Source: Liolophura sinensis
Lineage: Eukaryota > Mollusca > Polyplacophora > Chitonida > Chitonidae
Assembly (NCBI RefSeq): GCF_032854445.1
Contig: NC_088304.1
Span: forward strand, 27,349,732 to 27,413,731
Direction: 5' to 3'
DNA: 64,000 nt
Shown: positions 951-58,717 of the stretch, in pieces
Layout: every line of letters starts with the position of its first letter
Position numbering within the stretch: position 1 is the first letter of the stretch
The notes under the pieces: generated by a model
The model's database searches: none
Told to the model about the DNA's origin: nothing
The model's input: only the letters and a program-made list of their open reading frames with translations
Position numbers and translations under genes: made by a program

Positions 951-2349
951 TACTAATGCATGTTTCAGTTACCAAAACTTGAAGTTCCATTTGAATTTAT
1001 ATCCTATCAATCAGTTATTTATAATGAGATTTTGCTCCTACATACTACTACAGGTTGTTGGCTTACATGCCTGGGTGCCCGAAAAGAGCCCATATGACTG
1101 GGAAGCATCGCGACAAGTACGGCATTGAAGAGTAGAACAATGCGCTGGTCAGTGAGAGGGTGTCTGGACAGAGCGGTAGTAGAATTGAATTCTAGTTGTT
1201 GCCAGCGGTTGAATTCACGTAGTCCAGCATGAAAACTTATACAGTAATGTGTAATCTGTGGAGCAGTTACAGGAAATGACCACCTTTCTCAGAACTGAAT
1301 GTTCATTAGAAACCTTCCCTCCCTTAATGATTCCGGACCAGCTGTGTAACCTATTGTTCATTAGTGTCTTTGTGATGATAGTTGGAAACAATACTCAGTT
1401 AGCGCCCATAACCAAGATACGCATGGCGCCTTCTGGATGTTGTCTATGCGAAGGTAACTCAGCGGCATAATTCATTGAGTTATATCACTGTGTGATGAGT
1501 TACATCACAGAGTTATTTAACTTTGACAACATCCAGATGGCGCTGTTTGGGCCAAGGGTCATAACCAAGTATTGCTTCTCAATCGTAGGCAAAGAGGTAG
1601 CACAATCCTCATGTACTGCTAAACATCCGACGTGGGCATGAGTCGCTATCGCTCAGGAAATGACACTCCATTTTCTGTACACGTCTAATACACCTTCTCC
1701 CAAATAAAATTATGTACAGCTGAATTGAGATTTAATTTGCAGGAGCAACTACAATTGCTAGGGAGGACAGCTTTCTGGGCAGTTACTGTGGCCCAAAATA
1801 TGGTCACGCAAACAGCGCAGGAATCACGCGAGACTGGCGGACAGAGTAACACGTCGGGGCGGCTCACAAAGAATCGGCGTGACTACAGAGGGCTTTGGAG
1901 ACTTGCCGGTATTGTGGCTCTACCAGATAATCCCGCGTCGTCAGTATGTACCGACCTACTAACACCTTTAGACTGTCAACTTGAAAATGTGTCAGGTTAC
2001 GTCTGGAAGGTGTAAATGTACGAAGGTGTATTGGCTTCACATTTAAAGGATACTTAAGGCTCGTGCAGGCTTCCTCTACGGCCTTTAATACGGAGTGTAT
2101 GACGTGGCAATAAAGCTTCTTAGTTTTCCTTGTGGCGTTAACGCAATCCTGTAGAATGCATCATGTTTACGACCTTCTTCCGAACAGGGAATTGGAAAAC
2201 CCGGTGATCAACCTTCTGACCTTAAGCCTCAGCCGAACCAGCGACGGCTGGGTTCGAATCTTCAATTCCAAAGATGAGGGGAATATCTGCTACGGGAGAG
2301 CAACTCTTTGGCTGGGCGCAGATCTACCATGCTCCATGACAAAAAATCC
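951..2349 (+). other. upstream region of gene A, shared with gene B
   Basis: No gene is seen. Blocks here match gene B's upstream side: about 960-1560 against 58720-58040, 1715-2050 against 57990-57650, and 2190-2350 against 55930-55770. The last block contains a tRNA box-B-like string (GGGTTCGAATC near 2250) and may be an old SINE. Confidence 0.7.
1424..1545. mobile_element. MITE-like element with terminal inverted repeats, copy A
   Basis: About 120 bp bounded by near-identical inverted ends: GGCGCCTTCTGGATGTTGTC on the left, and the reverse complement of GACAACATCCAGATGGCGCT on the right. Internal palindromic ACTCAGTTATATCA-type strings are present. There is no coding capacity. A homologous copy sits at the mirrored site in the other arm (58046-58166), so insertion predates the duplication. 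No clear target-site duplication was seen. Confidence 0.65.
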
Positions 2350-2459
2350 CCATATTAATTTTTTGTTGTAATCCGCATCGCTCACCGTACTTTGCATTAT
2401 CTTAGTGACAAAGGCTTTAAAATATTTCAACTTGAATATAGAATTCTCAGTCTGTGACC
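2350..2459 (+). promoter_or_regulatory. putative core promoter and 5' UTR of gene A
   Basis: The 110 bp before the start codon align with the same region of gene B. A shared block (CTCACCGTACTTT then CATTATC and AGTGACAA) lies about 60-80 bp before the ATG. Where gene B has TATAAAA, gene A has a degraded ATATTAATTTT. The start site is not experimentally known. Confidence 0.5.
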
Positions 2460-2560
2460 ATGCTTCAGTCAGTCTGGTACTTCTCTACTCTCCTCCTGCT
2501 AGTGGCGGGAGCAGAAATCCGCCTGTATGTGTCTCCCTCTGGGTCAGACACCAACAATGG
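2460..2560 (+). CDS. gene A exon 1 (signal peptide)
   Basis: Encodes residues 1-34 (part): hydrophobic signal peptide with a TLLLLVAGA core, then EIRLYVSPSGS. Donor GG|GTAAGC. Ends in phase 2. Confidence 0.92.
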
Positions 2561-5500
2561 GTAAGCCTACAAACATATATCAGAGCATTTTTCTCTACTT
2601 AGTTTGATCGGAGACTTGACTTCCTCTCATGGTGGTTCTGGCATCGCTTTTGTGGTCTAATGGTTAGGGAGTCCACCGCAAAGCCCGGGTCAAACCCGCG
2701 TCGGTTAATACTAAAGATTTTAAAACTGACACTGGTTTCTGCTTCGCTTGGCGCTCAGAGTCAGTATAATGTGACTGGGTGGGATGTCATGTCTGGTGTC
2801 TTCGGTATGGCACTTCAATGGCTGCAGCATTCTGGAGGTATGAAGTTGTTCTGCCAGCAGAAGACACAGTATATGTACACATACCTAATGACTTGTCGTT
2901 GTCATATGAATGAAAAATTTATATGTAGGTGGCAAAATCCAAGGATACATACATATATACATACTAATAAATTTCAAAGTATTTTTCTGTAATCAATTTG
3001 ATCGGACACTCGAATCCCGCTCATAGAGCATCGGCTGCCGTGTGAGAAGTTTGCAGTTTAAAAGTGACTTTCTGTGGCTTTCCTTGGACACTCCGGTTTT
3101 CCCCATCCAACAGGAGGATACTGTCATATATGAGGGAATATTTCTTGTGTTATGGTGTTATATACCAACGAAATCGAAATAACATTTGTAATACATTAGA
3201 CGCTGAAATTAATCGCGTTTACACCGAAAATCAGGCCATTTTAATGTAAGGATATCTACGAAAATATTTTTCCTCATTGTTCCTCTGTCGGTGCATGCCA
3301 CTGAGACTTTGTGACGAGTGTTATTTGTAGTAACTTGTCTACGGTTATAGACAAAAGTGAAGGGTAGATTTCGAAAGGTGTGAAATATATGTGAATCTCA
3401 CGTTTCAGCATTAGTTACAGTTCCAGCTGAAGCTGTTAACATATGAGTCAATAAAGTTTACATTAAACGTATTGGCGTTTCTTGATAGAGGGGAACTTTT
3501 TTAACAGAGGGGAACTGTTTCTCGATAGAGGGAAACTGTTTCTTGATAGAGGGAAACTGTTTGAAAGTTAAATGCTGCTTCATAATTTGTGCAGAGAAGA
3601 AAAGGCTGCAAGAAGCAAACAAGTGGTATTGTACATACCATACGGAATGAGAAATGCTGTCCACCTAAAATAAGTTGGTTGAGGCGGTGCACTATTTCTA
3701 TAAAAGATGTAGTTCACAAGAAGTCACAGAAGGATGTGCTTTTACCCAATTTGTAGCGGGCTTGTGTAGGCGGGAAATGTAGTCCGATCACACCCATTCA
3801 TATTCATAATGTGCAAACCATAATTTCAGACTGACCCTGTCAAGTCCTTTGAAATCCATTCAAAAGGCGGTTTCCCGACTGAATGACCCAGACGTCGCTG
3901 GAAGTGGTAAGATCCATACGAGATATTAATTCTTCAGTGCGTAGAATCCAGAGCTGGCATCCTGTACACTTCTGTGTCATTACCTGATGACCTTCCTTAC
4001 ATACACCTCTAACCGAAATGACTTCAAACACACGACACCATTGGACAATGGTGTGATGATCACAGAAATCCAACTTTTAATCTGCTGAATCAACGATATA
4101 GTTACAGACGCACAGCATGGACAGTAAAACAAGAGCATCGACGACGGTGTGATAGCTGGCAAATGGTCATAAGTAACCGGTGAAATACGGTCGCTTGTCA
4201 ATTTACCTCAGCCAGGGCTTTGTTCAAACTGACCATGTAAATGCATACATAGTAGCAATTTACACGCTCCCTAACACCATGGCTTAAGCTTAATTAGGCA
4301 AAAACAAACATGCAGTGATGCTGAATGCAATTTGTAAGACGTCACTGGTCTAGAAATGTTCAAAATGCTATGTTGTCATCACATTTAACATACAATCACA
4401 TTAAAACAAGTCAAAGGGAGTGTCCACCAGGAGAAGTCCTCCCACCAGCAGAATGCGACATTCCTGATGTTATGTAAAATGATGAATGCCGCGAAACAAC
4501 GATAAGTGTGTAGCGAAGAGACTTGTGTCCAACATACTTAGATACAGCACTATCAAAATCTGCCACTGTGTGTAATGGATTTCTGTCGTTGAAGTTTAGG
4601 GCCTCTGTGGCCTAGTGACTAGTGTGCTTGGAGAACACAATGACCCATTAGCCCATTACTACTACGTGAAACTCTCTGGTGGTACGTAAATAGGTCTGAC
4701 AGGAACCTGCGGATGTTCGTGGAATTCCTGTCGTTTCTGTAATCTTTCCTTCCATCATATTGATGGTCGCCGTTGTACAACTGAAATATAAGTTTGAGTT
4801 CGGCTTATACGAATAAATAAATAAGGGTATAGTAAATATATTGCTAAGGAAATGTTAGTATGGTTTACTTCAAAGCAGAAATCATATTTAACCAGAATAA
4901 ACATTGAGAACGTTAGCCACCCCCACAGTAAATGTGCTACTACGGGGAAATACTCTGCATTTGTGTAAAGCTACCCACAAAGTTCCATCAAAACCAGTGC
5001 ATAACGTTTTCCGTTAACTGGTTCACGGAGAATAAGATAGAATATGGTGAGAACTGGCTTAATGAAGTGCGAAATATATGTATATTTAGGAATCAGCACA
5101 AAAATGTAACGGACAGGTGCTTGGACACCAAGTCGGGCTTGATCGTTAGTCGCAACCAAAATGAACTGGACTTGTGCCTGACTAAAAACCAAAAGTTTCT
5201 TCAAAGTTTTCCGTTTCCGTCATACATTTGTCAAAGATAAAGATTCGTTTCAAACTTTCTATGATCTGGATCGTGATTTATAAGACCAACACATTGTAAT
5301 GTATTGGTAATGAAGCCATTCTAAGCAACAAACTTTCCCTGTCTGTCCATATCTTGTTTAAAGTTGCTGACAGAGTTACACACAGACAGACATTTATTTA
5401 TACATCTGATGAATGTTTAACATCGAGATGAAGAATTCCTACCTTATTTGACGGCGGTCAGGTATATGGGCGAAGAAACCGTAGTGCCCGGAGTATACCA

Positions 5501-8500: not shown

Positions 8501-11500
8501 GTATGAGCGTTATTCACCATGCTTCTGCCTTCTTCTGTAAATGGTTAAACGTAAATTGTTTTATCCTATGAAAGTTAGATGAAGGAAACTTTGTTGGGAT
8601 TTTGTTTTAAATTATCGACAGTTGTTGCGGTCCTTATTTTTAATCTTTTAAGTAACGTTCTGTTGTATCCGCTTATATTAAAGACACAAGCATTGTATTT
8701 CACCTAAATTCCGGTCAGTAAACAGGCGCTTTCAGAAGCACATAAAAGTATTAAAATTCTACTTTTGTCGACAATAGTTTTTTCACATGAGAAATGAGCT
8801 CACAAACTCTTACGCGGCCATGTAAGAGGTATGAATAAATCAGAAGTAAAATATATCTGCTGAAAAATACTAAACTTTAGGTGAAATACCGTAGATATGT
8901 TTACATTAGAATTCAGAATCAGCATGGTTATAATCACCGAAAGTTTTCCTCTGGACAGCTTTGTTTCTATAATGCAGGGTTCCTACAAGAACGTTATCAC
9001 AACGCCAGATGGTCCCCGGGGTCATAGGTTTACATACCATCATTCTTCTGTTGGTTCGAGAGCACAAAAGTGGGCACAAGAGAAAGATCTGTGGGTGTAT
9101 GGATTTTGGTAAGTCGAGTATTTTTATGGACCTCAGATTTCGTGTATTAAAACTTATGCAGATTGCTTACTATTATGTTTGATGTCTTTAGCTTACTATT
9201 ATGTTTGATGTGTTTAGTTATCAGTAGATCAAATGGTCTGAAATCGAAAGCCAAACAATGAAAGTTGGTTGGATCTGTAAGCTCCTCAAATATTGCTAAA
9301 TGATCAGATTGTACTACCAAAGAAATCAGACGCCAAATTGTCTATATGTGACCTTATTTATGATATATCGCTATCAATCGGTGTTCTAGGTATTGGGATT
9401 GGGCGGACGAATCAGCCCATGTTGCTAAAGTGGACCCATCTAACTACATGATCACACTGAGCACCAAACTACATTATGGCATGAGACCAGGTTTGTGTTC
9501 ACGTCACATCGTCTTAGTTTAGCGCGACGTGAAACACTAGAATGCTGTTTGATTATCAAATATGAATATATAACCGAACCCAATATCCGTTACCCACAGT
9601 CATGCTTTAATAGATTAGATACATGCCTGTCTCTTCCAAGATACGTCCGTGCATGTTTGTCTCTGACAAGATACGTCTGTACATGTTTGTCTCTGACAAG
9701 ATACGTCCGTACATGTTTGTCTCTGACAAGATACGTCTGTACATGTTTGTCTCTGACAAGATACGTCTGTACATGTTTGTCTCTGACAAGATACGTCTGT
9801 ACACGTTTTCGTATTAATTCACACATCATAGCCTCGGTCATTCTCTTACATTCTGATTATACATGTTTTTTGTTTTATTGTCAACACAGATATTTACCGA
9901 TTTCTGTTCTTCTTTTCTTGCGAATGGCGTAAAACGTCCAGTAAGTAAACACATTTGTTCTTTCAGGACATATTACTGAGGGTGCACATGCTGGATACAC
10001 CAGCCAAGGCGCATACTTCAACGTGTTCAATGCATTGTCAGAACTAGATCAACAGGTATGTATTGTGTTATTTACATACCTTTTTTAATGTATGGGTTAG
10101 TTTGATCTTCAGAGTGAGCATTTTGTCACATATTCACCTGAGTTTGATTCCAGAAAACATGTTTTTGTTTGGTTTAAGTAATAAAACTTAATTAAAATGC
10201 ATAATTCGTGGTGTCCGAAAATGAATTTGTGACAAACTTTTCGTTGTATGTCATTTAGTAACTGCTTGCAATTTTAAGATCAATTTATCCAAAATAAATG
10301 TTAATTTCCATTAGCTGATTTAAACACATCAGCCCCATAAATAGCAAAATGTTAAACTTCGCTATAACAAATACACATTTCTACAAAAACAGTAAATGTA
10401 TAGATTCAAATTGACTTAATACTTTTTTTGAGCGAATAACGCTTGATAACAGTTTACAAAAACCTAGAATCGGAGTCGTTGTCACAAATAATTGTAAGTT
10501 TCTGTTTATCTAAGGGAGAGTACTACGTCGATAAGGAGACCGGTATTCTGTACGTTTGGCCTCCCGAGCATAACGGACAGGTCGAGACGAGCGATATCAT
10601 CTACGCTTCCTTGATTAATGATTTGTTCCAGTGAGTCATCATTTTTACTTTGTTTCCCTAAAGTCATACTTTGTATAGTTGATTCCTGTGTATCTGAAAC
10701 ATTTCCGTATTTTATGCTTGTTCTCGGTAGGTGCACTTTGTTGTTGACGTACAGGTTTCTCTTTAAGTTAAGACGATCGCTTCTTGATCACATTAAAGCG
10801 AATTTTTCGTTGAATCAGCTCCATCGCTATTTACCACACATGTGGCAAGATGCTGTGGATTTTTCTGTTCAGTGTCTAGATTTCTCTCTCTTTACACATA
10901 ACCCCGTCCAAAATGTAAAATATTTTAAAGTAGATGGAACAAAAATCAAGCATAAGACCCAAGTTAAGGAAGTATGAACTATTTTGTTTACAGATTTTCA
11001 AACGTGTCGTCAGTAACAATGGAAGATCTTATACTGGAGGACTGTCGACATAAGGCGATAGCTGGAGACCATCTGGACAACGTGATTCTGCAAAGGCTAG
11101 AGATCAAGAATACGGGTGAACTTTTTGCCTGGATATCAGTTGTTTATTGTTCATTGCTTCTTGCCCGGTACAGCTAACTATTTTTTACTTGTTTATCATA
11201 TTTTTCTAATTTGCGATAGGATGATGGGATTGGATGATTTCATAACACAAATGAAGTGATGCAAGATTTAGTTTCGGTTGACAACTTTCAGAGTTTTACG
11301 TACATCTCATGCAGTGGAAATCTGTTCCAATTCGGCGAGATTCGAATTTGAAGTTCTTTTCCTCCAGGTTCTTACGGGATGACGGTGAAGTCCAGTAAAC
11401 ACGTGACTATTCGTCAGTGTGAAATCCACGACACAGACGGAGGAATAGAGATCAATGGTACAATATGATATCACACATCATGATAAGTGATCTATATTGT

Positions 11501-14500
11501 AGACTACCCTCTCTGTAAATGTTGCCAATGACTAGGCCAATAAGTTAATAAGCTCATGGCAATGCTGTCTGTTTCTCCAGATCGACCAAGGACAGTAAAA
11601 GGCAACGGTGGCCTAATTCCGCGTCTAAGGCGGGAGGCCTGAGCTCAAATCCGGGTCGGGTCATACCAAAGACTTCAAAAATGATACCCCTTGTTGCCTT
11701 ACTTGGCGACTGGGTGTCAGGGCTGGTGTCTTCGGCATGATGCTTCAGTGGCGACAGCACATTGGCGGCATACACTCGCCCTACCAAAAAATGACACAGT
11801 TTATTTATTATTTCTTTGGTTGCTTTGATACGGGGATTTGAATCCTGGGCGTAACATTTTAAAATCTCGATGTACCGTTATCGACCCGTAGAAAATGAAA
11901 ATCTCAATTTACCTCAATCACGATTTCAATCTGACTGTTCATGTAAATGCATGAATAATAATATTTTACACGCCCTTTTAATCAGAATTAGGTAAAAAAA
12001 AAGGCAGAGATGTTAATTAGACGTAACTAGTCTAGAATTGCCCGTGTATTTTCCCTTGTGCCATCTACCTCAGGTGGTGAGAGGAAGACCCTGACACCAT
12101 CGGGCAACCTGGTGGAAAACAACCACATATGGAGTTTCTCTCGGGCTGGTGCTGTGGGTCAGCACGGCATCAGTGTCACAGGGGTAGGGGCAGTGGTGCA
12201 GTTCAACCACATCCATGAGGGACGGTATACGGGCATCTGGTGGATGGTAAGTCAACGGGAATCACGTCCAGGTCACATAAGCTCAGTTATTTTCCTTACT
12301 ATTTATGGAGTAAATTATCAACTTCAACTCCAGAATACACATGCCTTTACACCTTCACGTGGTAGGGAAAATATTCCATACCATCACATGCTGCTTGAAC
12401 TTTTACCTACAATAAGTAAAAAATCAACTTAACATGACTGCGTTGTTTGCTATGGCTTTTTTGCATAAAGTCATTGCATTCTGTGACTTTGATAACCTTC
12501 GGGGTGGTGAGTGATAGCTTTGGGTTTTTAGATGTATCCAAAGCAGACAAATTTTTGATGCATTCTAACTCGGTGTTAAATAACGGTGCAGAAATTTACA
12601 CTCAAGAACCTGAAATGTTTGCGTGACAGTATTCTCTGGCAAACATTTGAACCAATTACGCACGTGTAACCTCAAGAAGAGTTCTCGCAGTGGTGAGCGG
12701 GAGATTTAATTATCGCAATGGTAAACGAAACAACTTGGACTTATTCCTGTACCTAATGGACTGTACCTGCCGGTGAAGGAGTCAGGAGGAAAACACCCAC
12801 CTGGCGAACTGACAGACTTTCTGACGTGTGGCAAACCTTTTGTTTTACCCGCTGAGCTACCTTCAAGTATGAACCATACTGGTGATAGAACACTGGCCTT
12901 TAAAAAATACTTTACGTCAGACGAGGAAGACGATAATAAGACTTTTAACGAACGTATATAGTTAGCAACGATAATGGGGCGGCCAATCCCACCACCAATT
13001 CCCTGTTCCCATACAGGCATTGTAATAACAGATGTGTTACCTGCCCCTTTGACGCTTGAAACAATAAGAGAGGACGGAAGTGTTGAATGCTCAGCTGTGA
13101 GTGTACTGTCACGGTAGGAGGTGTCATGTGTGGCGTCTTTGTCACGGCGCTTCACTGAGACAGCACAATAACGTTACTTTGTCAGTATTTTAAACGGTCT
13201 ACTATAAGGAGACATTAGTGAGATAAAAAAAAAGTCAAAAGAAATTGTCATTATGCATTCATTCCGAAATGTTAAAATGATTCGGTAGGCGATATTTACA
13301 GTTATTGCAAACACTACCTGTCTGAAGTTTCACGAATGGACATCAGTTGGTATAACGTTTTTAAACTGCATTCTGTAGTTCTGCATTACGTATTAATAGC
13401 GAGTACAGCACAGAAAACCATCCACACGAGTCTTTTCTAGAAGCCTTATAACCTCCAGGGTGTATTTCTGGGAAGTCATAATACGACTACATTGTTCTGA
13501 AATACAGGGAATTGGAAATTTGTAAATTGGAAGATTTTGTGAAATCTAGTGTGGTTTAAACACCGCTTTTCTCTCCCTCTGTCTTCTCCGTAGGGTAATG
13601 ATCACATGATAAGGAAAAATCACGTACATCATTTGTGCACGGGAGCCTCGGACTGTGGCGGGATTCACACTGGACGGGACTGGACATGTGTAAGTTAACA
13701 GTTGGTAAAAACAACTATTCCATTTAGCGTGAAAGGAACCATAGTTCTGTGCTAGTGTGGTCAGAAAAAGCGATAGATCTGAGTTTAATCCGCATTTATA
13801 GCTTATGTTTCAACGTTCATAAGTGCAATGCTTCCTTGGCTGGGTGTTAGTTTGCTCTAAATTAGTGAAATCTCATTTTTGGTGTCATCGGCATGGCGTT
13901 TCAGTTAGGCAGCGTAATGTCTGCGATATACCACCATTCGAATAGGCCTCATAAATGGTGACGCCCTCGTGTTATATCTGTGATAATGTTAAATACCATC
14001 TTTGAAACCACTTCATAACAAGCGGACTGCAATTCAAGTCTTAGAAGAAGTCTCAGATGAATGAATGGTTTTGGCTTGACATCGCTGTGTCATTATTTAA
14101 ACCATATCGTGGGAGGTGGTGTATCTTCAACTCTAGCATGTGCGCATGTGGTTTCAAAGCACAAAGATCGAATCCACAGACACCACAGTGAACAGCTTGT
14201 ATGACGCTGGTCATCAATAATTCTGACAAAACTGATTCTGGTTTAAAAACATAACATGCAAACTATACATTTTGCAGCATAACGATAGCGTGTTATTTTA
14301 AGGAGAAAAAAAGAATTGTAAAATGCCATGGTAACAAATGTGATAATATTCAGTAGGACACGAACATCTCTCCAAGCATTCAAATTGGATGAAATCTATT
14401 ATGCGTTGTGCACCGTATTGAACTTTTACCACGGAATGTGTTTCAGTCAGTGAATTAGTCCCCTTAATGATCGCTTCTACTTTGTCAGAGAGGAAATGTC

Positions 14501-17500: not shown

Positions 17501-20500
17501 GGAGATACCTCTGATTATTTACACCGCTTGTTCTTTGGATATAACTCAAAACAGAAAAAGGGCGTGGATCTCGGAGAACTTACACGACGTCGATTGTATA
17601 TCTTGTAAGAATTGTGCCGATTGTAAATTTAAAATTATTCGGAATGAGTACGATAAGTAAGCGTGTTGTGTAAACATGTAAACTAGGCATTTCCGCCTGT
17701 CCGTGTTTGAAACATGCAGCCTTTGAGAGAGTATGAGACTGGTGGTAATTAAACTGAGATAGCCTCTGACTTTAACTGCAGCTGGATTCACAACACTCCT
17801 TAACCTTTTGTGTCTTTATTTCGCAGTATGCTAAACCTACTGATTTTAACCACCAACGATCTGGAGATTACCGAGTGGTATGCCAAGCTGCTCAATGGGC
17901 AACCGCACAAGGAATCTCTCAACCACCAACTCTAAACGAAATCGGTCCACATCTGTCTGTTGGTCCATCCTTTAAACATAGTAAGAATTGCAAGACATAC
18001 TATTTTACATGTATCTTTATACTGACAATGGAAATGGATTTTACATTCAAAATATTATTCTGTTAATTCTTAAATAGAACATTTGTTGTCTGAGTGATGC
18101 TAGAATATATTTCGTTATTATAACACAATACTGGGTGCCTCTGTGGCCGAGGTGATTAGCACTCCAGCACGGCGCAATGATCCAATGCGATCGCTGTGAG
18201 TTCAAGTCCAGCTCATGCTGGCTTCCTCTCCGACTGGACGTAGGAAGGCCTACCAGCAGCACCAATCAAAAAAATAAATAAACAAATATAACAGAATACT
18301 CTGTCATAATATCCGAAGTCTATGCGCAGCGTTTGGAAAATTACGGTCAAAACAAACATGTCGAGCAAGGAACACGTGGATGGCAGAAACAGTGACAGTG
18401 TGATCTTGCTATCTTTCCTAGTCAGCCTGTGAATCCCTGTGAGTATCATACTGAATATACACATTACACCATAAATGGCATAAAATAAATAGAGGAAGCT
18501 GGGCTAAAAATGATACGCATAATAGAGTTTTAAAGCTTGCTCGACATCTCCATGCTGGGGCCCTTTTTCTTTCTTTCTTCAATGTACTCCACCGATCAAA
18601 CTGACCACTAATTACTACTCTATACTTGTTTCACAACCTGTCGAGGTCTTTTTACGCCCCTTTTTGGCCGACCCTCTCCCCAGTGAACCGTAGGTGCTTT
18701 TTTTACGCGTGTAATCAGCCATGTTTGTTTTATAAGAAGTTTACGGAGCGCTTTGCGCATGCTCCATTTCCACTGAATTGACAGACCTTATTTAAATATT
18801 CTGGCACACTTTTCAGTTTTCAATTTTTGGGTTATTTTTAAACATTCACTTAACGTACAATGCTAGGGGTGGGATTAACGAAAAGCTTGTAACTTTCACT
18901 TCTTGTGAAAAATATCAGCTACTCTTGTTATTCTGTAATAACGCCAGAATACCTAATATTTGAGCAACCGTGCCGCTGTAACAGAACAATATGTTACAGT
19001 AGCATAACACATTCTAACATTACTCCGACGACAGACTTTCTGTTAAAATTAACAGACTAATTTTTTGAGTGTATATTCTACCAAATGAAATGCATACGTG
19101 GCAAATGGTGGTGATGAACCCACTGGTCACCCGGTGTCACTTCTGAATAATTTTCTGACATTCTAGCTTTCTAAAATTAACCTATGGGATTAATTTTTGA
19201 CACTGTAATTCAAGTATTGAAAAGAGAACTGCGATAGGACAGTCGTTTAACGACATTCAACCTTATTCTGATTTATAATGGTCAAGGTCGTCCCTTCTAC
19301 CCTACTACCACTGCAAAATATACATATTAAATGTAGATGACCGTGCGAACGGCATCGAGTCTGTTACGCAATTAACATCCAGGCAGTAAGAAGTCATTAA
19401 AAAGGATTTGAACTTTCCGTCTTTTTCTTTTTCGACTTTTGGGATTTTTTGGGGAGATTTATGTAAAGGTGAAATATTATGTCAGATATGTGTTATATAG
19501 CATTGTTTATAGATATTACTTTAGTTTTTACATAAAGCTTACATTAAACCGTTAAACCTTCGCTGGCATTATAGTGTACGTCTTGATTATTCAACGTTTC
19601 AGGTGCGTTATCCACGAAGACGAATATACCATTAAGAACGAACTGTGTGATTACGACTGAAGCTCCCTCAACCAAAGTCCTGCGGCCACAGGTTGTGAAC
19701 GATGGAAGCCAGCCCAATACACTGACTGATACAACTGGTAATCACGAACTCGTATGCATCTAAAACTGATATTTATCTATTCATTTCTTCTACATATACT
19801 AAATAATACAGTGTAGCATTTGTAATTGGCTACAGGACAGAAGTTTGTTCATTTATTTATCCATTAATTTATTCACTTCATTGCTGTTCACGGTCGAGAT
19901 TGAACCGAACCTCTTAACAAAAATGTATGACATGGTTGCACGGTATGCAGTACCACGAATATTACACAAGATATGAGGTTTGTTTAAGGAAATAAATATT
20001 AATACAACCCTCTACGACCTCTAAGTAATCCCGAATAGCCTGCTGACCTGCTGGTTAAAATCACTGAAGGTAAGAAAAGTCCTTCTGTATCTTGTGACCT
20101 GTTAAAAATGTTAGGCCAGTAGTTTTGATCATATTTCGTAGCACATCTGTAACAAAGTCGAGCNNNNNNNNNNNNNNNNNNNNNNNNNNNNNNNNNNNNN
20201 NNNNNNNNNNNNNNNNNNNNNNNNNNNNNNNNNNNNNNNNNNNNNNNNNNNNNNNNNNNNNNNNNNNNNNNNNNNNNNNNNNNNNNNNNNNNNNNNNNNN
20301 NNNNNNNNNNNNNNNNNNNNNNNNNNNNNNNNNNNNNNNNNNNNNNNNNNNNNNNNNNNNNNNTTCGTAGCACATCTGCAACAAAGTCGAGCAAAAAGTT
20401 ACTTAGAGTAACTGATGGCCTAAACATTCGTGAAATTAGAAGTTTCTAATAGAAAGAGGTGGCATATGAAAAGTTGCCTAACATTTTTCACAATTCACCT

Positions 20501-23735: not shown

Positions 23736-24003
23736 GCTGCGTATCACACCAGAATTAATTAATGTGGATTGTGCATCTTGTACACGAATGACTTATATGA
23801 AAGAGTCATGTGCCGTTCCTTCGTAAAATTGCATTGATGTTGTTTTCAACTTGATTGACAGTATATAGGTAAACGCTTAAGTATTGGTCCTCCCAAAAAC
23901 AATAAATGTCACTCTGACCACATTCTGACAGTATACGCTTGAGCAGAAACACACTGCAAAAACGTTTCAGGAACATACATCTTCTCCATCTCAATTAATT
24001 ACA

Positions 24004-24220
24004 GAGGCCACCGAGTGTTAAGGATGACATCCCAACACAATGGCTTAGGAACATCCCTCCAATGGTATCACTCAGAGGTCAAATCCAGCAACCTCTGAAT
24101 GAGCCTATGTTTCTCCCAGGCCGTGCTCGGTTTCCTCCTACCATAATTTTGGCCACCACTGAGTAAGAGAAATATTCTTCCCTGTGACGTATAACACCAA
24201 CCAGAAAGATAACTAATTGT
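24004..24220 (+). mobile_element. SINE-I copy, diverged, at the spacer edge
   Basis: Head GAGGCCACCGAGTG, box-B-like GAGGTCAAATCCAGC, tail GACGTATAACACCAACCAG. Marks the inner end of the left arm. Confidence 0.55.
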
Positions 24221-24434
24221 TTATTGATTTCTTTGTTTCTTTGATTGTTAATCTATTTGTCTGTCTAAAAAATTACGTTGAACACACGCAGTCTTGAGTA
24301 AGAACAAATAACGTTTGCAAGTGGAAAAGATTCATCGGTCGAAGGCTCGTTTTCAACGTGACTCGATATCGTCAAATCCAGACACCAACTCTCAAAACGA
24401 TGTTCAACACAAAGTACCCAGGAACTAATTATAA

Positions 24435-24603
24435 TGTCTTAATTATTTGTGAATAGACAAATAAAAACATTTTGGTGACACACTTGACGGCTGTATTCGG
24501 GCTTCTTCACATGATAGCGGACTCCCCTCTTGTTACCATGGAGACGGACTAGCTCATGTTACATAACCAGTAGGGGGTACCGATACGGCCTAAAACTTAG
24601 ACA
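24435..24603 (-). repeat. 3' LTR of the outer retrotransposon
   Basis: 169 bp, about 90% like the copy at 29910-30081 by eye. Both keep GTTACCATGGAGACGGA and GATACGGCCTAAAACTTAGA. Adjacent inside (24604-24630) is a T-rich stretch that reads as a polypurine tract on the - strand. Confidence 0.85.
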
Positions 24604-24979
24604 TTACATCCTTCGTTTTTTTTTGTATAACTGATTAACCCAAATTACTCTTTGAACTATACTAATATTTACAAAATCTTTTGGAACTTTAAAATTAAAA
24701 AACCATGAGGTTAGAGTGTAACCTGTAGTCCGTAATAATGTATTCTCCGCACATTAAAGAATTCAATGCGTTGATAGCGCCCTTTACAGTAACTTGAACA
24801 CAATTAATATTATTTTGCGAACAGTCAAAACAAATGCACTTGATCTAAACAGTTCACACTAAAACTGTCAGCATAAAACTCAGTAATTAAAATATTTGAA
24901 AAGTTCAAATGAATTGAACACACGCATTTCACTCGATGTAAAAAAAATAAATTTCACTAAGGAAATTCACATTCCAACA

Positions 24980-26240
24980 CATCACACATAGGCAGACAGA
25001 TACGCGAGCTGGATGTGATTTCTAGTTGGGAAGCGTCTCGGAATATCCTGCTGGTTCGGTTCTGACGGAAGGTCCTGATCATCGTAAGGATCGTTGACTT
25101 CAGGTAGGTTCATTCTCGTAATTTTCTTCAGATCCCGTTCGTGCTGTTCACCGTTAGAACCCTGGACGATTACCATCGATCTTTTTTTGGAGACCGCTTT
25201 GAATGGGCGTTTGTCAATTTGGTTGACAGTTTATTTTCACGTTTGGCTGCTAGCAGGACTGTATCCCGTGGTTTAAAGTTAGAGACACTGGCACCAGATT
25301 TTGCGTCCGAGCGAGCTTTCATTTTCAACTTGGCTTGTCCTTGTCACTTTTGTTTTGTAGATTGATGTTTCTCGTTGCACGAGGAGCTTACAGGTTCTGA
25401 CAATTTGGCCTTGATTGGCCGCGAAAAGAGCAGCTCGGCCGCAGATACACCTGTCGTTGAATGTGGGGTTGCTGAGTAATTCAGCAGAAACTGGATGAGA
25501 TCTTTCTCCCACTTTCTCTTTCCAATGAAAGAGGATCGAACGGACTTTTCTAAGGTTCGCATAAAGCGTTCTGCCTCGCCGTTATCTCTGGGCCAGTAAG
25601 GAGTTACGTGTCTGTGCTTGAAGCCTTGAATTTCCCGCATCACCATTGAATGGCGGGCTATTGTCAGTTTTAAGTAGGTCGACAATGCCATGTGTGTAGA
25701 AAATTCTGTCAAATTTGGGAATTACATGTGCGACTGATGTCGATTTCACTTCATCTTCCGGGTAACGGGAAAAAATCATCGATGACAACCAGGAAGTAGT
25801 CACTGTTTGGGAAAGGTCCCAAAAATCGGTACTAACATGACTACAGGGCTTGTCAGGCATTTCGGTCATATTCAGTGGCCCTGGTTTTGGGGATTGTCCG
25901 TTGCTTGACAGGGAATACATTGACCAATTAAAGTCTCTGTGTCCTTGTCGATACCTGGGTACCACTCTTTTCGCGCCACAATAGCTTTGTTTTCACGATG
26001 CCTTGATGTCCTTCATGGGCAAGTTTAAGGAAGTGTGTTAGCGTTTGTGGAATGATGATATGCGATCCGCGAATAAGAATGCCTCTAGACGGTGTCAGAC
26101 TTAGTTCCATTTCTTATTTTGTAGAACTGCTGTAGGTCTGGATTATGTTTGTCCCATTTTCCAGATGAAACAACTGTCGCGAGCTTTGTCATAACCTTGT
26201 CCTGTTTGGTTGCATACGCGCGCATTCGTCTCAGCATATT
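24980..26240 (-). pseudogene. integrase remnant of the outer element
   Basis: Reading on the - strand from about 26240: a linker, an LTPSRGILIRGSHIIIP zinc-binding lead-in with HFLKLAHEGHQGIVKTK, then STDFWDLSQ (first Asp), LKTDNSPPFNGD (second Asp) and NGEAERFMRTLEKS (Glu), ending with the C-terminal tail near 24982. The pieces lie in different frames, so it is inactive. Confidence 0.8.
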
Positions 26241-26246
26241 TTGGCT

Positions 26247-27259
26247 TGTTACGGTAGTGAAAACAGCAACAGAAAACAGACTCAGTGACTCAATATTACA
26301 ATGTAAACAATGGCTTTATATATAAAATGAGACGTACAGTTTTACAGACAGTTCAACAACAACAACATAAAAAAAACATACACATCAGTATTACCGGTCT
26401 TTAAAAGTTTCCAGTTCACCTTTGCATCCCAAGGAACGAATTCCAGGAGATCCAACGTAAAGACCATGGGATAAACACACACTTCACACAAGTCACAAAT
26501 TGTTCCAGACAGGTACTTCGCTAGGTTAGCGAACGCGAACACAGTACACAGGTTACACAGAACTGGAACAGTCAAGCCTTTGAATGACGTCACACCCGCA
26601 GAGCACAACACAGGGTAAATACAGGCATGGAGGTATAATCCACTTTAAAACAGTCAGCTCCCACAGAAACTCACAAACGAGCCGTTCAGAGACGTAGAGT
26701 AATGTCACCTTGTGGCAGAACGAACGTCCTTTGCCAAAACTGAAAACTTCAGTTTAGAGTCCTTGACGACCTTGTCGGTCAGGTGAGGTCATCGTGTTAA
26801 ACAAATTACACAGTCCACACTGTATAATCATAATAAAGATCCGAACACCAATAAACGTGACTTCCGCAGAAATTCACATAAACCAGACATCAGTACTACT
26901 GTGGTACACAAACGGTGCCGGCATAAAAATCTGTCCTCCCAAATGAAACTGGCATCACCAGCTCATATAAACATAATGGACTCTATACGAGAGCGTCGCA
27001 CACTCTCCTGGCTCCCAGTGGATGCAGCAAAAATACCTCCTCTCTGCACAGAAAACACGGCTTATATACGCTCCAGGTAGATTCAACTATTTTTAGACAC
27101 AGAATTAACATCCAATGAACAGCCAGTTAAATAAACAAAGCATTAAACAAGGTGCTTTCGGCCAGGTCCGCGCTGTACATATATAACAGGGCCTGTTATG
27201 CTTTCACAAAGGTCCGCAGACTAACAGTACATGAAAACGTTAAATAGTCATACATAACA
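26247..27259 (-). repeat. 3' LTR of the nested element
   Basis: 1013 bp, TGTTATG to CCGTAACA on the - strand. Closely matches the solo LTR at 62394-63404. An 89-codon open frame inside is preserved in both copies but looks like chance in a recent repeat. Confidence 0.88.
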
Positions 27260-27369
27260 CCCCCACCCTTCAGGGAAAGAAAGTTTTGCATAAAACTTTC
27301 TTTAACATATTCATAATCATGAATAATAATAACGTTTACCACAGTCTTTAAAAACAAAGCTGCAGAAAA

Positions 27370-28690: not shown

Positions 28691-28734
28691 TCACTGAATG
28701 GAGATTGAGGCATAAACTGTCTGCCACTGTTTGA

Positions 28735-29050: not shown

Positions 29051-29139
29051 TACACTGCTGCTTTTGTCACAAACGGTAAATACATACTCATCCCCTGATG
29101 ATGAATCAGTGTTACTCTCTTCTGCATGTATTTGGTTAA

Positions 29140-29907: not shown

Positions 29908-29909
29908 AA

Positions 29910-30900: not shown

Positions 30901-31244
30901 CAGTCAGTTATAATGGCCCCTATAGATAATAAATCGAGATGGAGAAGATGTGGGTTCCTGAGACGTGTTTGCGGTGTGTTTCTGTTATTAAAAGGCGAAT
31001 GTTCTCAGCATGCTGACAAAGTGACCTTTATTGTTCTTTGGAGGACCAGTCCCCAAGCGTTCCCCTAAATACTATCGATCAAATTGAAAACACGATCAAT
31101 TTAACTTTCAAAGGAATTGCACGTGACTAAGGCGACAGAACACACAAGTCTTTCATGTAAGTCTCTCGCTTACAAGACGCACACTCTACATCCACTCTGG
31201 TAAGGTGCGCAGCATTACAAATTACCATTTTTCCTAATGTCAGC

Positions 31245-35276: not shown

Positions 35277-36734
35277 CTGAAACATTGATTAACCAAGGCA
35301 TATACCCTTGTCATCAAAGGTTAAACGGTTCAAAGTCTACGCCCTAAGCTTGAAGAAAATGTGCAAAAAAAAAACGCATATTTCACACTGCCATTCTCCT
35401 TCGCAGATGTCATGAATTTTTGACTAGTCAGTGGCAAGCGGAGGTGCTGCAGTTGGCCAACATATTGAAACGCTGTATCTGTACGTGTTTGTGTGGAGCC
35501 ATGTCTCACTGTTGCGTGACGTTCGAATGTGCATATAGAATTACAAACTCTATGAACTATATGAAGTAGCACCATTCTCACATAATATTTCACCTGCACA
35601 TAAATCACACAAAAAGATCTAAATGAGAAAAAAATGTTCAATGATCCTTTTAAGCGCACAAATAAACAGCACATTGGAACAATGCATTATTTGGTGAGGT
35701 ACACGTACCAGTCTGCATGTTAATTGCATAACAGACTCCTTGTCGGATAATAACGCTTATATATATTACCTGTGCGTGCCCCGTTTCTGCTGGTGGTTTT
35801 TGACCCCGAGGCGAGACCTCTGCACAATTATACCAATAACTATAAATCACAACACTATGTATAGGACTAACGCTGGGAATAGTGGTGCATGTTCCCAGGG
35901 CGAGTCAATAAATGATTCGTTTGCACTAAGACACATTTCCATCAAAGTATCGGATATATTTGAGAACATTCCAAATATGGACATACCAGTTGTCTTACAT
36001 GTACATCATTTGATACAACCGCCACTTTTATTTCTTCACTGACTGGTAAATGTTATTCTGTTAATTCCTGCGTTAGCTTAAGCTGTATTGCCTCTAACTG
36101 TATTTACTTGGAAACATGCAAGAAGTGTGATCAGTAGTATGTTGGGAAGACCACCCAGAAACTACAGAAATCTACGGTTGAACCGGCACCGTAAGTCCGT
36201 GCCCAATAAACAATAGCTAATAGGCTAGCATTTCTCTACCTCCGACCATGATTGGGACCATTTCAGCATTCAAATAACAGAATCGGTTTATCCATCAGCA
36301 AATGAGACAAATGTCGAATTTGAACGTAAAATAAGTGACCGTGAGCTTTTCTGGATGCTAGAGATTGATTCAGTCTTTCCGTAGGGGTTGAATGATAACG
36401 TTATGGGAATCGGCAATTAACATCCAGCCAACCACATGACTCCATCATAATAAATTTATTCAAATACCATAAACGTAGGCCTCGCAGTCACGGTAGGAGT
36501 AAGTTCAATAGAAACGTGATTCACAAACACGTTACCGTTAGCTATTTAGTCGGATTGTCGTATGACACCAATAGCATGCATGCTCTACCCACAGTATTAT
36601 ATGCTCTGCCATTGAATTTGCTAAAACAGGTAGTTCAAGGCGTGTCCAGTAACATACACAATTTTAAATTCCACCTCACCTTGTACGTCTGTGTCAAGAC
36701 ATATCGTATTTTCGGTTGTATCGCCCTGTAACTA

Positions 36735-39316
36735 CAATTGAAACTCAACACGATCGACTCTCTAAAGATAAAGTATTTAGACAGAGGCCTTGACTTAATT
36801 AACCTACCACGGATCTTTAATGAGTCTGATGTTCGTAGTGCTGTGCCTAATTATTTTAATATCCATGAGCCCCCTAGCATATCCTATGAGTATACAAAGC
36901 CCATCGCTTCCAAAATTTTCAATTATTCCCAGGCCATCAAGGAGTTCGATTTGGCGACGTATACTTCTGGCGGCTATAACTGTGATTGTAAATCCTCAGT
37001 TTTTACCTGCGACAAATTTAAACATGTCCTGACTGGTGACCTTAATATTATTGAGAATCATGATCTAAGGAATCTCTTTGTGAGAGGTCCTAAGTATAGA
37101 GAAAAGAGAAATGTCAACATTTGATCTAACAAAAAAATATCATCTCGGCGCTTGAGGAATATGTTTAAAAATGGTCAAAACGGGAGAAAGTGGATTCTTC
37201 GGTGCTTAACGATTGGCTTGAGATTTTCTTAAAGAAGGTTAGTTTAACTGTTCATCGTATAGACATTGATGCTCTCCCTAAAGTTGAACAGGTTCTAAAG
37301 GGTCCCACTGTTTAAGAAACGCTTGCTGACCTTCATAGTAAATTTGTCATCACTGCAGCAGACAAGGCTCCCAATAATGTCATCTTTATTTTGCAAGCGT
37401 TATTATTATCAAATTCTTGTTCAAGAGCTATGTACATCTACAACAATATCCACGTATTCTGCTACTACATGTAATCTGAAGGAACTATTTAATAAACACA
37501 AAACCTTTCTTAAAGAAATGGGCCTAAATATACCTACCCGTCATACAGAAATACCACAACTTTACTGGATTCCTAAAATGCACAATTCCCTTACAATGCT
37601 CGATTTCTTGCGGGTTCAAGAAGTTGTACCACCAAACTCTTGTCAACCCTACTTACGAGAGCGTTACAAGGAGTAAAGTCATTTTGAAGTATGTATTGCT
37701 GTGCCATAACAAAAATTTCAGGTGTCAACTGTATATGGATTCTTAACAACTCCAAACGTCTTACAGAAGAACTTGATGCTCATATGCATATACCGTACAA
37801 AGACGTATCCACATGGAATTTCTCTACTCTCTATACTACAATTCCTCATAAAGACCTTATTGAAAGAATATCGTCGTTAATTGTCTCGGTATTTACTAAA
37901 ACAGGTCACCGTTACATTAACGTCAAAAGCAATGAGGCTTTCTTTAGTTCTACTATTTATAAAGGTTACAACTCATGTGATGTTACATTATTTATTGAAT
38001 TACTTGAATTTCTCATTAATAACATCTATGTGAAATTCGTAGATACCATTTACCAACAGTGCATAGGTATTCCAATGGGTACCAGTTGTGCGCCTCTTTT
38101 GGCAGACCTATACCTGTTTTCATATAAATACGACTATATGCAGAAATTACTTAAAAGTAATATCCTTAAGGCTCGATCCTTTTCATTTACCAAGCGGTAA
38201 ATTGATGATCTACTCGCGTTAAATAAACCCCATATTGCTGAAGAGGTAAAGGAAATCTATCTGCCTTCATTGGATTTAAAGGAGAAAACAGATAGTCCTG
38301 AGGCTACATCTTATTTGGATCTATATCTGTACAAAGACGAACAAGGTCTCATTTCACGCCGCGTTCACGACAAAAGAGATAACTTCAATTTAGATATTGT
38401 AAATTATCCTTATTTGGATAGCAATATACCAAAGGGACCTACATATGGCGTATACATAATTCGCCTTGTAGCATTTGGCAGATCTTGCGTAAATTGTGAT
38501 GATTTTAATCTGCGTTACAAGCTGTTAGTTCAAAAACTAGTTTGTCAAGGACACTCTATCAAACGCCATCATTCTCAGTTTCTCAAATTTTACAATGAGT
38601 ATAACACTCTAGTTGGCACGTATGGACAGAGGGTTCAGAATCACTTGCGATCTGCATTGTGATCAACAACATAGACGGCGCTGTTATCCTTATGTACATA
38701 TCTATCGAATACATGGCGTTTAACAACATAGATGGCGCTGGTTGACGAGTGCAAGCGTCTATCTTGTAGACAGCTTTTATACAGACAAGCATGTCATTTG
38801 TAACATCATAGATGACGCCTCTTGTAGTATGACATCCTTACATATTAACGGGAAAGACGTAATCGTCCGTTACTTTTGAATCACAATCTGTTTGCTTAAG
38901 TTCTGTCATTTTCAAACTGTATCTAATACCGCTTAACCTGGGGCTAGGGGTTATAAAGGCAGCCATGCTCATTATATCTGCGTGATGCCTTTATGAACAG
39001 TTGCAACCAAAGCGCGACTGAGATACCTTGTTTATTTGTTATTTGACCCGGAACTCATTCATGGACTACGAATTTGAACTTTAATTTGTAATTCGTGCCT
39101 GGAATATCCACTGTCTGCCCGGGATCGTTGGAGACTGATGACCGCTTCTCTCTTGTGTGTTACGGGATTTATTTCGTATTTGTATAATTTCTTACATACC
39201 TTTGTCTGTGGGAGCTAGTGTTGAACGTTTTTTTAGAAATAGATCTTGCGATTATCGACTTGGAACGCCCTTTACGAACTGCGAATGGTATACGAATGTC
39301 GGACATGACGCTCATA
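36735..39316 (+). mobile_element. degenerate Penelope-like retroelement, intron 18 of gene B
   Basis: Broken frames in order: 36738-37124 (N-terminal, with YNCDCKSS), 37323-37676 (YWIPKMHNS), 37691-38200 (WNFSTLYTTIPHKDL and IGIPMGTSCAPLLADLYLF), IDDLLALNKPH just after a stop at 38200, and 38270-38662 (SYLDLYLYKDE, VNYPYLDSNIP). These match the RT architecture I associate with Penelope-like elements; I see no GIY-YIG endonuclease. The 3' region (38660-39316) has three CATAGATGGCGC-type repeats and a TTATAAAGGC box. Gene A lacks the insertion. The 5' boundary is approximate, and intron sequence 35277-36734 shows nothing else I recognise. Confidence 0.65.
37691..38260 (+). pseudogene. reverse transcriptase core of the Penelope-like element
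   Basis: Contains RT motifs: STLYTTIPH (motif A region, first catalytic Asp replaced by Asn in WNFST), GIPMGTSCAPLLAD (motif B) and IDDLL (motif C) after an in-frame stop. Inactive. Confidence 0.7.
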
Positions 39317-48683: not shown

Positions 48684-48854
48684 CTGAAAGAACAAATGTG
48701 TTTACTTACTGGATGTTTTACGTCGTACTCAAGAAAAGAAGAACAGAAATCCGTAAATTGTATGAACTGTGTTGACATTAAAACAGAAAACATGTTTAAT
48801 CACAATGTAAGAGAAAGACCAAAGCTATGTTGTGTGAATCAATCAGAAAACATG

Positions 48855-49020
48855 TCCAGACATATGTTATCAGAGACAAACATGCACAGACGTATCTTGT
48901 CAGAGACAAACATGTACAGATGTATCTTGTTAGAGACAGACATGTACAGACGTATCCTGTCAGAGACAAACATGACCAGACGTATCTTGTCGGAGACAAA
49001 CATGACCAGACGTATCTTGA
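48855..49020. repeat. 30-bp minisatellite, about 5.5 copies, intron 7 of gene B
   Basis: Reverse complement of the array at 9622-9805 (unit ACATGTACAGACGTATCTTG plus TCAGAGACAA). Here it is bracketed by a duplicated flank (about 48755-48840 and 49040-49137), which A does not show. Confidence 0.9.
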
Positions 49021-51308: not shown

Positions 51309-51456
51309 GTCATTTGGCCACCTTGCCAAACGGAGAGGTTTCCCGTTGTAGAACACCTCCAGTGGAGCGGTGCGCTGTACGTCAATCCAAACTTACTTAA
51401 GTTTTCCCAACTGAGTCAGCGGAATTCCAGCCTCCGTTAACGTCTAACTGCAGGAC
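51309..51456 (-). pseudogene. gene B exon 5, frame-broken
   Basis: Against gene A it has an extra base in TTAGACGTTAACGG, another in CTTAAGTAAG and one fewer in GGATTGACG, net +1 (148 nt). The frame reaches TAA about 60 nt in. The 3' half still matches the NGKPLRLARWPND coding sequence and both splice sites survive (TCCAG acceptor, GTGAGT donor). Confidence 0.85.
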
Positions 51457-55929: not shown

Positions 55930-57640
55930 GTACTGAAGAGTGTCGTATAGGTAGAGCATTGTACAGTACTGCGCTGAATGCCAGTGAAAGTCAAGCAAGT
56001 AAATACAACCAAGTCTGTTTACTGTGATACAAGCTGTATTGTTTTCATGTGATATATGTGATTTTCTTTTCCGTCATACTGCTCACAATATATAGGTTCG
56101 ACTACAGAAATTACTGTATTCACATGCAGGTTTATGAAGGCTACACAGCAGACATCGGACAAACTAAACCTGTCAGCTCGTTGAATACATTCCAATATGT
56201 TGACATTCATGGAGACAAACATATAGATAAGCATGTGGCAAACGTCAAGCAGGATCGATATCATAATGATTGCGTGCAGCAATCATGGTATATAGTAAGG
56301 AAATTGGTTGAAATGACCAAAAACCTAACTTTTTGAACATCCCTCTGAAAAGTACCAGATGAGGCATGAGCTACATATATAAATTTGCATATATACAGTG
56401 AACTACATTTGCGTCATTTTGTTATACGTTTTGTGTGTTAAAAGAGAAAAGTAAACACTCGTCCTTAGTAACTTCATGAATACTAAATGCTTGCCTAGGT
56501 AGAATTTGGGGGCAAAAAGATGGGGTAAGTAGGGTAGGCCTGAACGTTGGACGATTACAGTTGAAAAATACATTTACGTGTCGTTTATGTTGGCAATAAT
56601 TTTGTGGCATAACACATATTTTAATAGGTAACGTGCCATTGGCATGGCTTGCCACTGAGGCAGCATGTTGCAATTGTCGACACGATCCGTCAAATTGAAT
56701 TTGTATGAAAATATGACGTGCGCCATTTTTTGCGATTATGTACATTCGATAAATCTCATCTCATCTATGAAAGTGACCTGTATTTTCATTCCGCTTTAGC
56801 ATCAGGACATCAGCTTATTATAGACAATAGTCGGGATCTGACCCAGATTGAAAGCAGTATAAAATCTCAAGCAAAAACAACTTTGTCTGTACACACGACA
56901 CAAGTCCAGACTGCACGTAGATTTATTAAAGTATTGTGGTACAGTCATTTGTTACCCCCTGGGTCTGAAGAAGGCGGTGATACTCGCGGTGGGATCGGAT
57001 CTACTATGGTACCAGTAGTCTGAAGCTCCCTGCAGACAAGATTCCTGAACCACATCTGCAAAAAGCAGAACTTTCCATTCAAATGTTTGGATGGTTTCCG
57101 ACCTACAGGAAAAAAGTGTTAAAAACACATCATTCTCTGTTTAGGTGGAGTTCTACCCCGTCTTCGAACGATACAAGCTTTAGAAGAGGAGAAACCGGCA
57201 ACAGAGGCAGGAATCCTCCGTATCCTGCAAGGCTTCTGTAAAACCTCCTGACGCAAAGTCCCATTCTAAACAACCAAGTTTAGACCCGGACATGTGACCT
57301 TCTAACCCACTATTGTTTCAAGTTAGATCCAGCAACAGGCACCTCTGTCAAGTTTTATGCAGACCATCACATGACTACCGAGAAAAATTGGCTAACTTAT
57401 AAACATCAAACCAAGATATCACCGCAGAGTGGCAGCGAAATAAACGAATCACAGCACTCTTCTAGCAAATACCTTTTTTCACCTACACGGTAAAGAACGA
57501 AGGTTCGCTCTCAATTGTCGTTCTGTCATATAAGCGCAATATTCTTGAGTCTTTTCTTAACAAACAAGATAAATAGGTGGTTTGCCAGACATTTGTATGT
57601 AATCTGCATTTGAATATGCGATGATTTTAAATGTGTAGCG
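55930..57640. other. gene B upstream sequence not matched in gene A
   Basis: About 1.7 kb between two blocks that do match gene A. Open frames are short and unsupported. Probably inserted sequence, type unknown. Confidence 0.45.
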
Positions 57641-58045
57641 AACTCACCTTCGTATATTTACACTTTCCAGACGAGACGTGACCTAGCATATGTTCAGTTA
57701 TCAGTGGACAGCCCACTTGTGTTTATCGTGCCCGTGGGTCGGCTCTGGTAGAGCCACAATGCCGGCACTTGTCCAGAGCCCTCTGTAGACAAGCCGATTT
57801 CTTGTGAGCCGCCCTGACGAGTTCATCTGCCCACCAGACTCGCGTGATTTCTCAGCTGTTTGCGTGGCCATGTTTTGGGCAGCTGTAACTCCACAAAAAC
57901 CAACCCTCACCAGCAAATGTAGTTCCTCCTGTAAGTTAAGTCCAGATTCACAAACCGATATAATTTTATTTAGAAAAAGACATTTTTTTAACCACGGATG
58001 TTGAAATTTTAATCATCTGTTATAGCCCATTGTCCAAATACACTT

Positions 58046-58166
58046 AGCACCATCTGGATGTTGTCAGAGTTAAATAACTCAGTGATGTATCTCGTTACTG
58101 AGTGGTATAGCTCATTGAATTATATCACTCAGTTGTCTTCGCATAAACAACATCCAGAATGCACCA
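58046..58166. mobile_element. MITE-like element, copy B
   Basis: Inverted ends AGCACCATCTGGATGTTGTC and the reverse complement of AACAACATCCAGAATGCACC, with AACTCAGTGATGTATC-type palindromic interior. Mirror of 1424-1545. Confidence 0.65.
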
Positions 58167-58717
58167 TGCGTGTCTTGGTTATTGACCTTAACTGAATATT
58201 GCATGTTTCCCATTGTCATCGCAGAAACAGTAATGAGCAATGGACTCGAATCATTAACGGAGGGAAGGTTTCTAATGAATAGACAGTTATGAGAAAGGTG
58301 GCCATTTCCTGTGGCTGTTCCAATTTTACACATTAACGATATAACTATTTATAAGTTTCCATGCTTAACTATGATGATTCAGCCAATGGCTCAGCTGAAA
58401 TAAAAGGACTTAACTATATACCCGCTGGTCCGTACACTGCCTGGACGGCCTGGTCACGTGGGATCCACCTGCCCTCCATTGCACTGCCGCTTTGTCCAGA
58501 TACACCATCTCACTGACCAGCGCATAGTCATATTCTTCACTGTACGTTTAGCGATGCTTCCCAGTCATATTGGATGCTTTCCAGCATCTAGTTATGATGA
58601 ACGAGCAACCCGTGGGGGAGGGTATTTGTGACCAAAATATCATTGTATATAACTCATTGATGAGGCCTAAATTCAAATGGAATTTAAAGTTTAGGTAACT
58701 GAAACATGCATCAGTGT

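Follow-up and report, generated by a model that had tools for sequence, protein, structure and literature searches.

Mirrored 23-exon genes in the chiton Liolophura sinensis are probably members of a local cluster of beta-helix paralogs

Introduction

When two long genes face each other in mirrored arms, is the mirror a structure in its own right or a detail of something larger? The question is raised by a 64,000-nucleotide stretch of the genome of the chiton Liolophura sinensis (the window, C10:27349732-27413731), which holds two 23-exon genes, A and B, arranged tail to tail, one in each arm of an inverted duplication. A previous sequence-only reading took this to be a giant palindrome, unstable and prone to gene conversion. 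We compared the two arms with each other, with 60 kb of flanking sequence on each side (mapped in window coordinates), and with the whole genome (609 Mb, 632 contigs). We conclude that A and B very probably belong to one local cluster of paralogs, in which a unit made of a decayed 3' end and a 23-exon gene is present in three copies: A, which is inverted, B, and a third gene, C. Purifying selection has acted on the copies as they diverged at synonymous sites (Ks 0.21-0.28), and exchange among them appears to have been patchy. This looks like an old, ordinary expansion of a gene family with one member inverted, and not like a special giant palindrome.

Results

Self-comparison of the window shows the inverted arms that a dot plot was expected to reveal: positions 952-24001 on the plus strand are homologous to 58715-30927 on the minus strand. 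The alignment is a series of 48 colinear blocks (14,446 columns, 80.7% identity), and because every block has E <= 1e-3 and their order is true to the mirror, chance is not an issue for the homology of the arms. Exonic columns (2,860) are 92.0% identical, and the remaining 11,586 are 77.9% identical. The arms measure 23.05 kb and 27.8 kb, and they and the spacer are close to the 23, 28, and 7 kb that had been estimated. Large arm-specific insertions had been noticed in the introns, and these are present too, for example 3.7 kb in intron 19 of gene B.

We built the gene models by comparing arm with arm under shared splice phases, which gave 23 exons in each gene (named e1-e24; e14 was dropped). 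Exon lengths and phases match throughout except at exon 5, where they differ by 1 nt. Together with the colinear blocks, this bears out the inverted, tail-to-tail pair. Over the other 22 exons, A and B differ with Ks 0.240 and a nonsynonymous distance (Ka) of 0.047, for a Ka/Ks of 0.195; for single exons the ratio ranges from 0.00 to 1.04 (exon 20). The exons had been said to differ by up to 28% in protein. They are indeed divergent, but the maximum is slightly higher: in e3, 12 of 38 whole-codon residues differ (32%, counted on the final exon bounds).

Could the mirror be an artefact of assembly, with two haplotypes or a folded contig wrongly joined? There is one scaffold gap of 200 Ns, and it lies within gene A, with a near-repeat of 29 bases at its edges. 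But these edges agree at 28 of 29 bases, which suggests that the gap is nominal, and the exon series of gene A continues over it with order and orientation kept. Furthermore, exons 21-24 of gene A and the whole of gene B are on one gap-free stretch, so the tail-to-tail layout does not depend on scaffolding. Alleles typically diverge far less than Ks 0.24 or 22% outside of exons, and there is a third copy. We find an artefact hardly credible: these are diverged paralogs and, as had been argued before, not a simple fold-back of one haplotype.

The third copy came from a search of the genome's DNA with exon 6, which found one more place besides A and B. Gene C lies 11.6 kb beyond B, outside the window and in the same orientation as B, and the flanks hold three more relatives: D, P1, and P2, which are 62%, 59%, and 59% identical to A (570 shared codons). 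With the exon relics described below (psi0, psiB, and psiC), the order is P1(-) P2(-) psi0(+) A(+) B(-) psiB(-) C(-) psiC(-) D(+), over about 160 kb. If at least three adjacent paralogs in one region make a local cluster, then P1, P2, A, B, C, and D are one, with at least six genes. In a genome-wide search with protein A, all 54 of the matches listed fall within C10:27318107-27471498; this is a lower bound, as scoring covered 48 of 138 candidates and the list lacks some exons that we mapped. With C in view, the mirror turns out to be the part of a mixed-orientation cluster that falls within 64 kb. A self-contained palindrome is not supported: the third unit is direct to B and no more distant from A than B.

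What was copied? A tblastn search with proteins A and B, with the exons of both genes masked, found exon relics upstream of both genes: types 13, 21, and 22 on the A side and types 15, 16, 21, 22, and 24 on the B side (Table 1). The arms are homologous around the exon-21 relics (952-1188 and 58715-58475, 75.8% identity), and across the blocks that hold mirrored relics their identity is 72-78%, which is about the level of introns. Yet the 3' relics agree with genes A and B at only about 33-46% of residues (75% for the exon-15 relic and 58% for the exon-16 relic). So the unit comprises the 3' end of one paralog and the whole of its neighbor. As judged from these alignments, we take the copied unit to be the decayed 3' exons of one family member plus a complete 23-exon gene; there are three such units, of which that of A is inverted. 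Stop codons occur in the relics of types 21, 22, and 24, at positions that differ between the two sides, and the stops of the three exon-22 relics (psi0, psiB, and psiC) are all at different places; the relics appear to have decayed separately after copying. The upstream region had been described as mirrored. It is, and its content turns out to be the 3' exons of another paralog.

The three units are about equally related. Identity is 80.84% for A-B (14,155 columns), 81.43% for A-C (12,710 columns, of which about 200 are a SINE-like repeat; SINE, short interspersed nuclear element), and 80.85% for B-C (13,414 columns). The corresponding Ks values, all computed with exon 5 excluded, are 0.240, 0.210, and 0.278. 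Among 9,380 three-way columns, 814 unite A with C, 782 unite A with B, and 592 unite B with C. These figures put A, B, and C close to a star. The inverted pair is not privileged, since A is at about the same distance from C, which is direct to B, as from B.

Individual exons tell different stories. The synonymous distance in exon 15 is 0.04 for A-B and 0.38 for both other pairs; in exon 10 it is 0.08 for A-C (vs. 0.58 and 0.79); and in exon 23 it is 0.05 for B-C (vs. 0.20 and 0.26). Site patterns, compared at 324 exon sites, are grouped by exon (chi-squared 116.4, against a mean of 41.9 after shuffling; p = 0.0002, the minimum that 5,000 shuffles allow). Clustering is also seen among all 2,188 informative sites, with 906 adjacent equal patterns where 741.7 were expected (p = 0.0005, likewise the minimum for 2,000 shuffles), and misalignment of introns may contribute to this second result. 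The exon mosaic is consistent with earlier gene conversion or exchange in which A, B, and C all took part. Gene conversion had been proposed for the arms, and the patchy history of the exons agrees with that; but A-B, A-C, and B-C are each favored in some exons, so the process is not particular to the inverted pair.

Some results weigh against this picture of the cluster. The nucleotide tree joins A with B (support 70) and the protein tree joins B with C (support 89), so that more than one rooting, and hence more than one order of duplication and inversion, would fit. Intron 7 contains a 30-bp minisatellite in A (9620-9808) and in B (48848-49019) that we did not find in the same intron of C, a hint of a sister relationship between A and B. 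And the mosaic could come in part from exon-specific changes of rate in one lineage.

The minisatellite would also suit a stand-alone giant palindrome, in which A and B were made as mirror images in one event and then kept alike by conversion between the arms. So would the mirror order of the genes and their upstream relics, and so would e15, e18, and e24, in which A and B resemble each other far more than either resembles C. But C is equally close to A, is direct to B, and has an upstream relic of a like kind, while e3 and e10 tie A to C and e23 ties B to C. Nor are the arms being kept alike: they are 78% identical outside of exons, and the longest exact run in their alignment is 77 bp. We consider such a palindrome quite improbable. 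Palindromic instability had also been expected, and the arms lack the near-identity that it needs.

Gene B has a damaged exon 5. In a three-way alignment with A and C, it has two one-base insertions and a one-base deletion that are found only in B, and the frame is lost. The remaining 22 exons are open, and given this and their Ka/Ks, gene B was constrained for most of its life, so, barring errors in the sequence, the damage is recent. If they were sequencing errors, gene B would be fully functional, and its open and constrained exons would fit. But a single slip would not produce three separate indels in a stretch of about 60 bases that also has substitutions nearby, and we think this explanation unlikely. 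Gene B would instead be a recent pseudogene, or exon 5 would be skipped. In A and C this exon is 147 nt in phase 0/0, so it could be skipped in frame.

We also tried a 24th exon at 13823-13942, since A and B agree at about 87% in this block. We found none that is satisfactorily open in both arms, and the phases join without it. The surrounding non-coding block in intron 13 (13790-14040) is conserved in all three gene copies (88% and 70% identity to A) and is possibly regulatory. We rejected an origin from a SINE or from a MITE (miniature inverted-repeat transposable element) for this block: it occurs at 5 places in the genome, of which 3 are the gene copies and the other 2 are short and weak.

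What do these genes encode? Protein A matches Pfam's Beta_helix (4e-20), and NosD passes its cut-off too (37.1 vs. 23.6 bits), so a parallel beta-helix fold is predicted. Read by eye, the N-terminus resembles a signal peptide, and exons 21-24 encode about three repeats that contain cysteines. The exon map and the genome search detected these exons in A, B, C, and D but in neither P1 nor P2. For the C-terminal 264 residues, Pfam gave no family when searched to E 1, and the PDB gave a single chain (0.14). Within residues 22-614, protein A is 30% identical to a planctomycete beta-helix protein (CP087563.1; E 9e-75), which in turn matches the GH141 enzyme BT_1002 (5mqp) at 2.7e-13. The planctomycete protein also hits the model GH141_M (2e-5), but its 24.9 bits fall short of the curated cut-off, 27 bits. 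A profile built from it together with A, C, and P2 reaches 9rx2 (1.1e-15) and 5mqp (1e-9). Our scans of other genomes relied on two short peptide patterns and were not surveys: genome contigs gave 1 confirmed relative in 135 stretches, and of 51 candidate stretches in viral contigs none was confirmed. Comparing the planctomycete protein to the host genome gave no match, which is uninformative, as it missed the known cluster too.

Based on these matches, the product is probably a secreted, GH141-like parallel beta-helix protein. We would call its function GH141-like, and not established as GH141. Searches with protein A by itself speak against a closer assignment: no GH141 model was found in Pfam (E up to 0.01) or NCBIfam, and with residues 1-689 against the PDB, 9rx2 reached only 0.0042, an unrelated chain 0.83, and 5mqp was absent up to E 1. 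A review (PMC10154630) gives D523 and D564 as the likely catalytic residues of BT1002. Position 528 of the BT1002 chain, which would be D523 if the chain is offset by 5, aligns with Asp471 of protein A, in a stretch worth only 2.1 bits. The planctomycete protein has Glu at this position. The profile alignment of protein A ends before D564.

The repeats in the arms are only partly mirrored. A mirrored MITE and mirrored SINEs had been reported. One repeat family is at mirrored positions in introns 2 and 11 of both arms, and there is a piece, which we take to be SINE-like, at the inner end of both arms (24129-24203 and 30470-30396) and of C. Other copies of the intron-2/11 family and a SINE-like repeat at 20562-20827 are not mirrored, and no MITE was confirmed in the arms. 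We did not use -2121 as a boundary for unit A, as the block that would extend the unit to there is a common SINE-like repeat (39 hits of at least 60 bases in 184 kb).

Several other elements lie in and around the arms. A dispersed LTR-like repeat (LTR, long terminal repeat) of 1 kb occurs at 26245-27259 and at 63406-62394. It has at least 41 matches genome-wide (40 of 768 candidates were scored), and some pairs of these are 5-6 kb apart on one strand. The copy at 63406-62394 has ATCT on both sides; the copy at 26245-27259 lacks these and is embedded in retroelement debris. At the two ends of the spacer (24430-24608 and 29905-30086) lie the members of a pair with 88% identity and equal orientation, probably a dispersed repeat. 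Within intron 19 of gene B, plus-strand open reading frames (36732-38662) look like a reverse-transcriptase element, judging by their sequence; the three that were searched had no Pfam match at E 0.01. A 24-bp minisatellite with a 96-bp higher-order unit lies beside psiB (59484-59949), and its counterpart beside psiC (99029-98557) is 82% identical. In gene D, an exon-21-type piece is present in about 5 tandem copies with in-frame stops between them (119732-120361). Rfam and ARAGORN found no match in the window.

Table 1. Features of the cluster in window coordinates, from left to right
Feature	Position	Strand	Remarks
P1	about -25.0 to -35.3 kb	-	exons 3-19 in part
P2	-5.3 to -20.0 kb	-	exons 2-19
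psi0 exon-13-type relic	664-771	+	tblastn 45% over 40 alignment columns, E 7e-8
psi0 exon-21-type relic	1050-1184	+	one stop; weak alone (E 0.07, 0.27); mirrored by 58613-58464
psi0 exon-22-type relic	1736-1990	+	E 3e-10; four stops in matched stretch, three in exon-22 part
Gene A	2460-23381	+	23 exons, GT-AG introns, uninterrupted 953-codon open reading frame; GH141-like beta-helix protein (predicted), C-terminal repeats
Scaffold gap	20164-20363		200 N; sole N run in the window; inside gene A intron 20
Spacer between arms	24002-30926		6.9 kb; retroelement debris (RNase H and integrase pieces), LTR-like repeat 26245-27259
Gene B	31518-55648	-	23 exons as in A, GT-AG introns; exon 5 broken
Gene B exon 5	51309-51456	-	148 nt vs. 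147 in A and C; frame lost, in-frame TAA
psiB exon-24-type relic	56937-57047	-	one stop; tblastn E 2e-4 (protein B), 0.002 (protein A)
psiB exon-22-type relic	57735-57920	-	one stop; tblastn E 4e-8
psiB exon-21-type relic	58464-58613	-	one stop; tblastn E 2e-6
psiB exon-16-type relic	60620-60697	-	tblastn 58% identity, E 6e-5
psiB exon-15-type relic	61035-61154	-	tblastn 75% identity, E 1e-13
Gene C	94.6 to 67.2 kb	-	complete 23-exon gene, GT-AG introns, open 953-codon frame
psiC relic upstream of C	exon 22 at 97.7 kb, exon 19 at 100.4 kb	-	one stop in exon 22; exon map
Gene D	103.2 to 123.6 kb	+	most exons

Discussion

Our results imply that a fixed window can make a gene cluster resemble a giant palindrome, and that the flanks dispel the surprise. 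The copies may have arisen by unequal exchange or by replication-based local duplication, plus one inversion, and the exchange between them would be gene conversion. A, B, and C are close enough to be used to study the exchange of exons between direct and inverted neighbors.

What remains of interest is the family itself: an intron-rich animal relative of a mainly bacterial family, in one cluster among the matches listed. According to the review cited above (PMC10154630), GH141 is 98% bacterial, and another paper places GH141 in the gut bacteria of an isopod. Other animal proteins with a beta-helix include fibrocystin and CEMIP. Our searches of the literature on GH141 and on parallel beta-helix proteins in animals and molluscs turned up no paper on an animal GH141-like gene, which is not proof that there is none. 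The protein might be a secreted enzyme that acts on complex polysaccharides, as a GH141-like protein could, and the cysteine-containing repeats at its C-terminus may be an animal addition. More speculatively, an animal lineage might long ago have taken up a bacterial GH141-like gene; added introns, a secretion signal, and the cysteine repeats; and kept the result as a private cluster of six genes, with exons exchanged across direct and inverted neighbors. We consider this history less likely than not.

How does the locus compare to known systems? The hsp70 clusters of Stratiomyidae (PMC3071340) are also made of adjacent paralogs, and the text of that article mentions "inverted orientation" 5 times and "gene conversion" 14 times. 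Those clusters are of a different family, whereas here the genes have 23 exons and the copies are old (by their Ks) and not near-identical. The GH141 enzyme BT1002 (PDB 5MQP) is a parallel beta-helix, as is predicted for protein A, and an N-terminal segment is common to both in the profile match; unlike it, the gene described here is from an animal and has 22 introns, a signal-peptide-like start, and C-terminal repeats that contain cysteines. The planctomycete protein shares the motifs NALSELD and WPPE with protein A, but where protein A has the animal repeats, it has a CBM9-like domain at its C-terminus.

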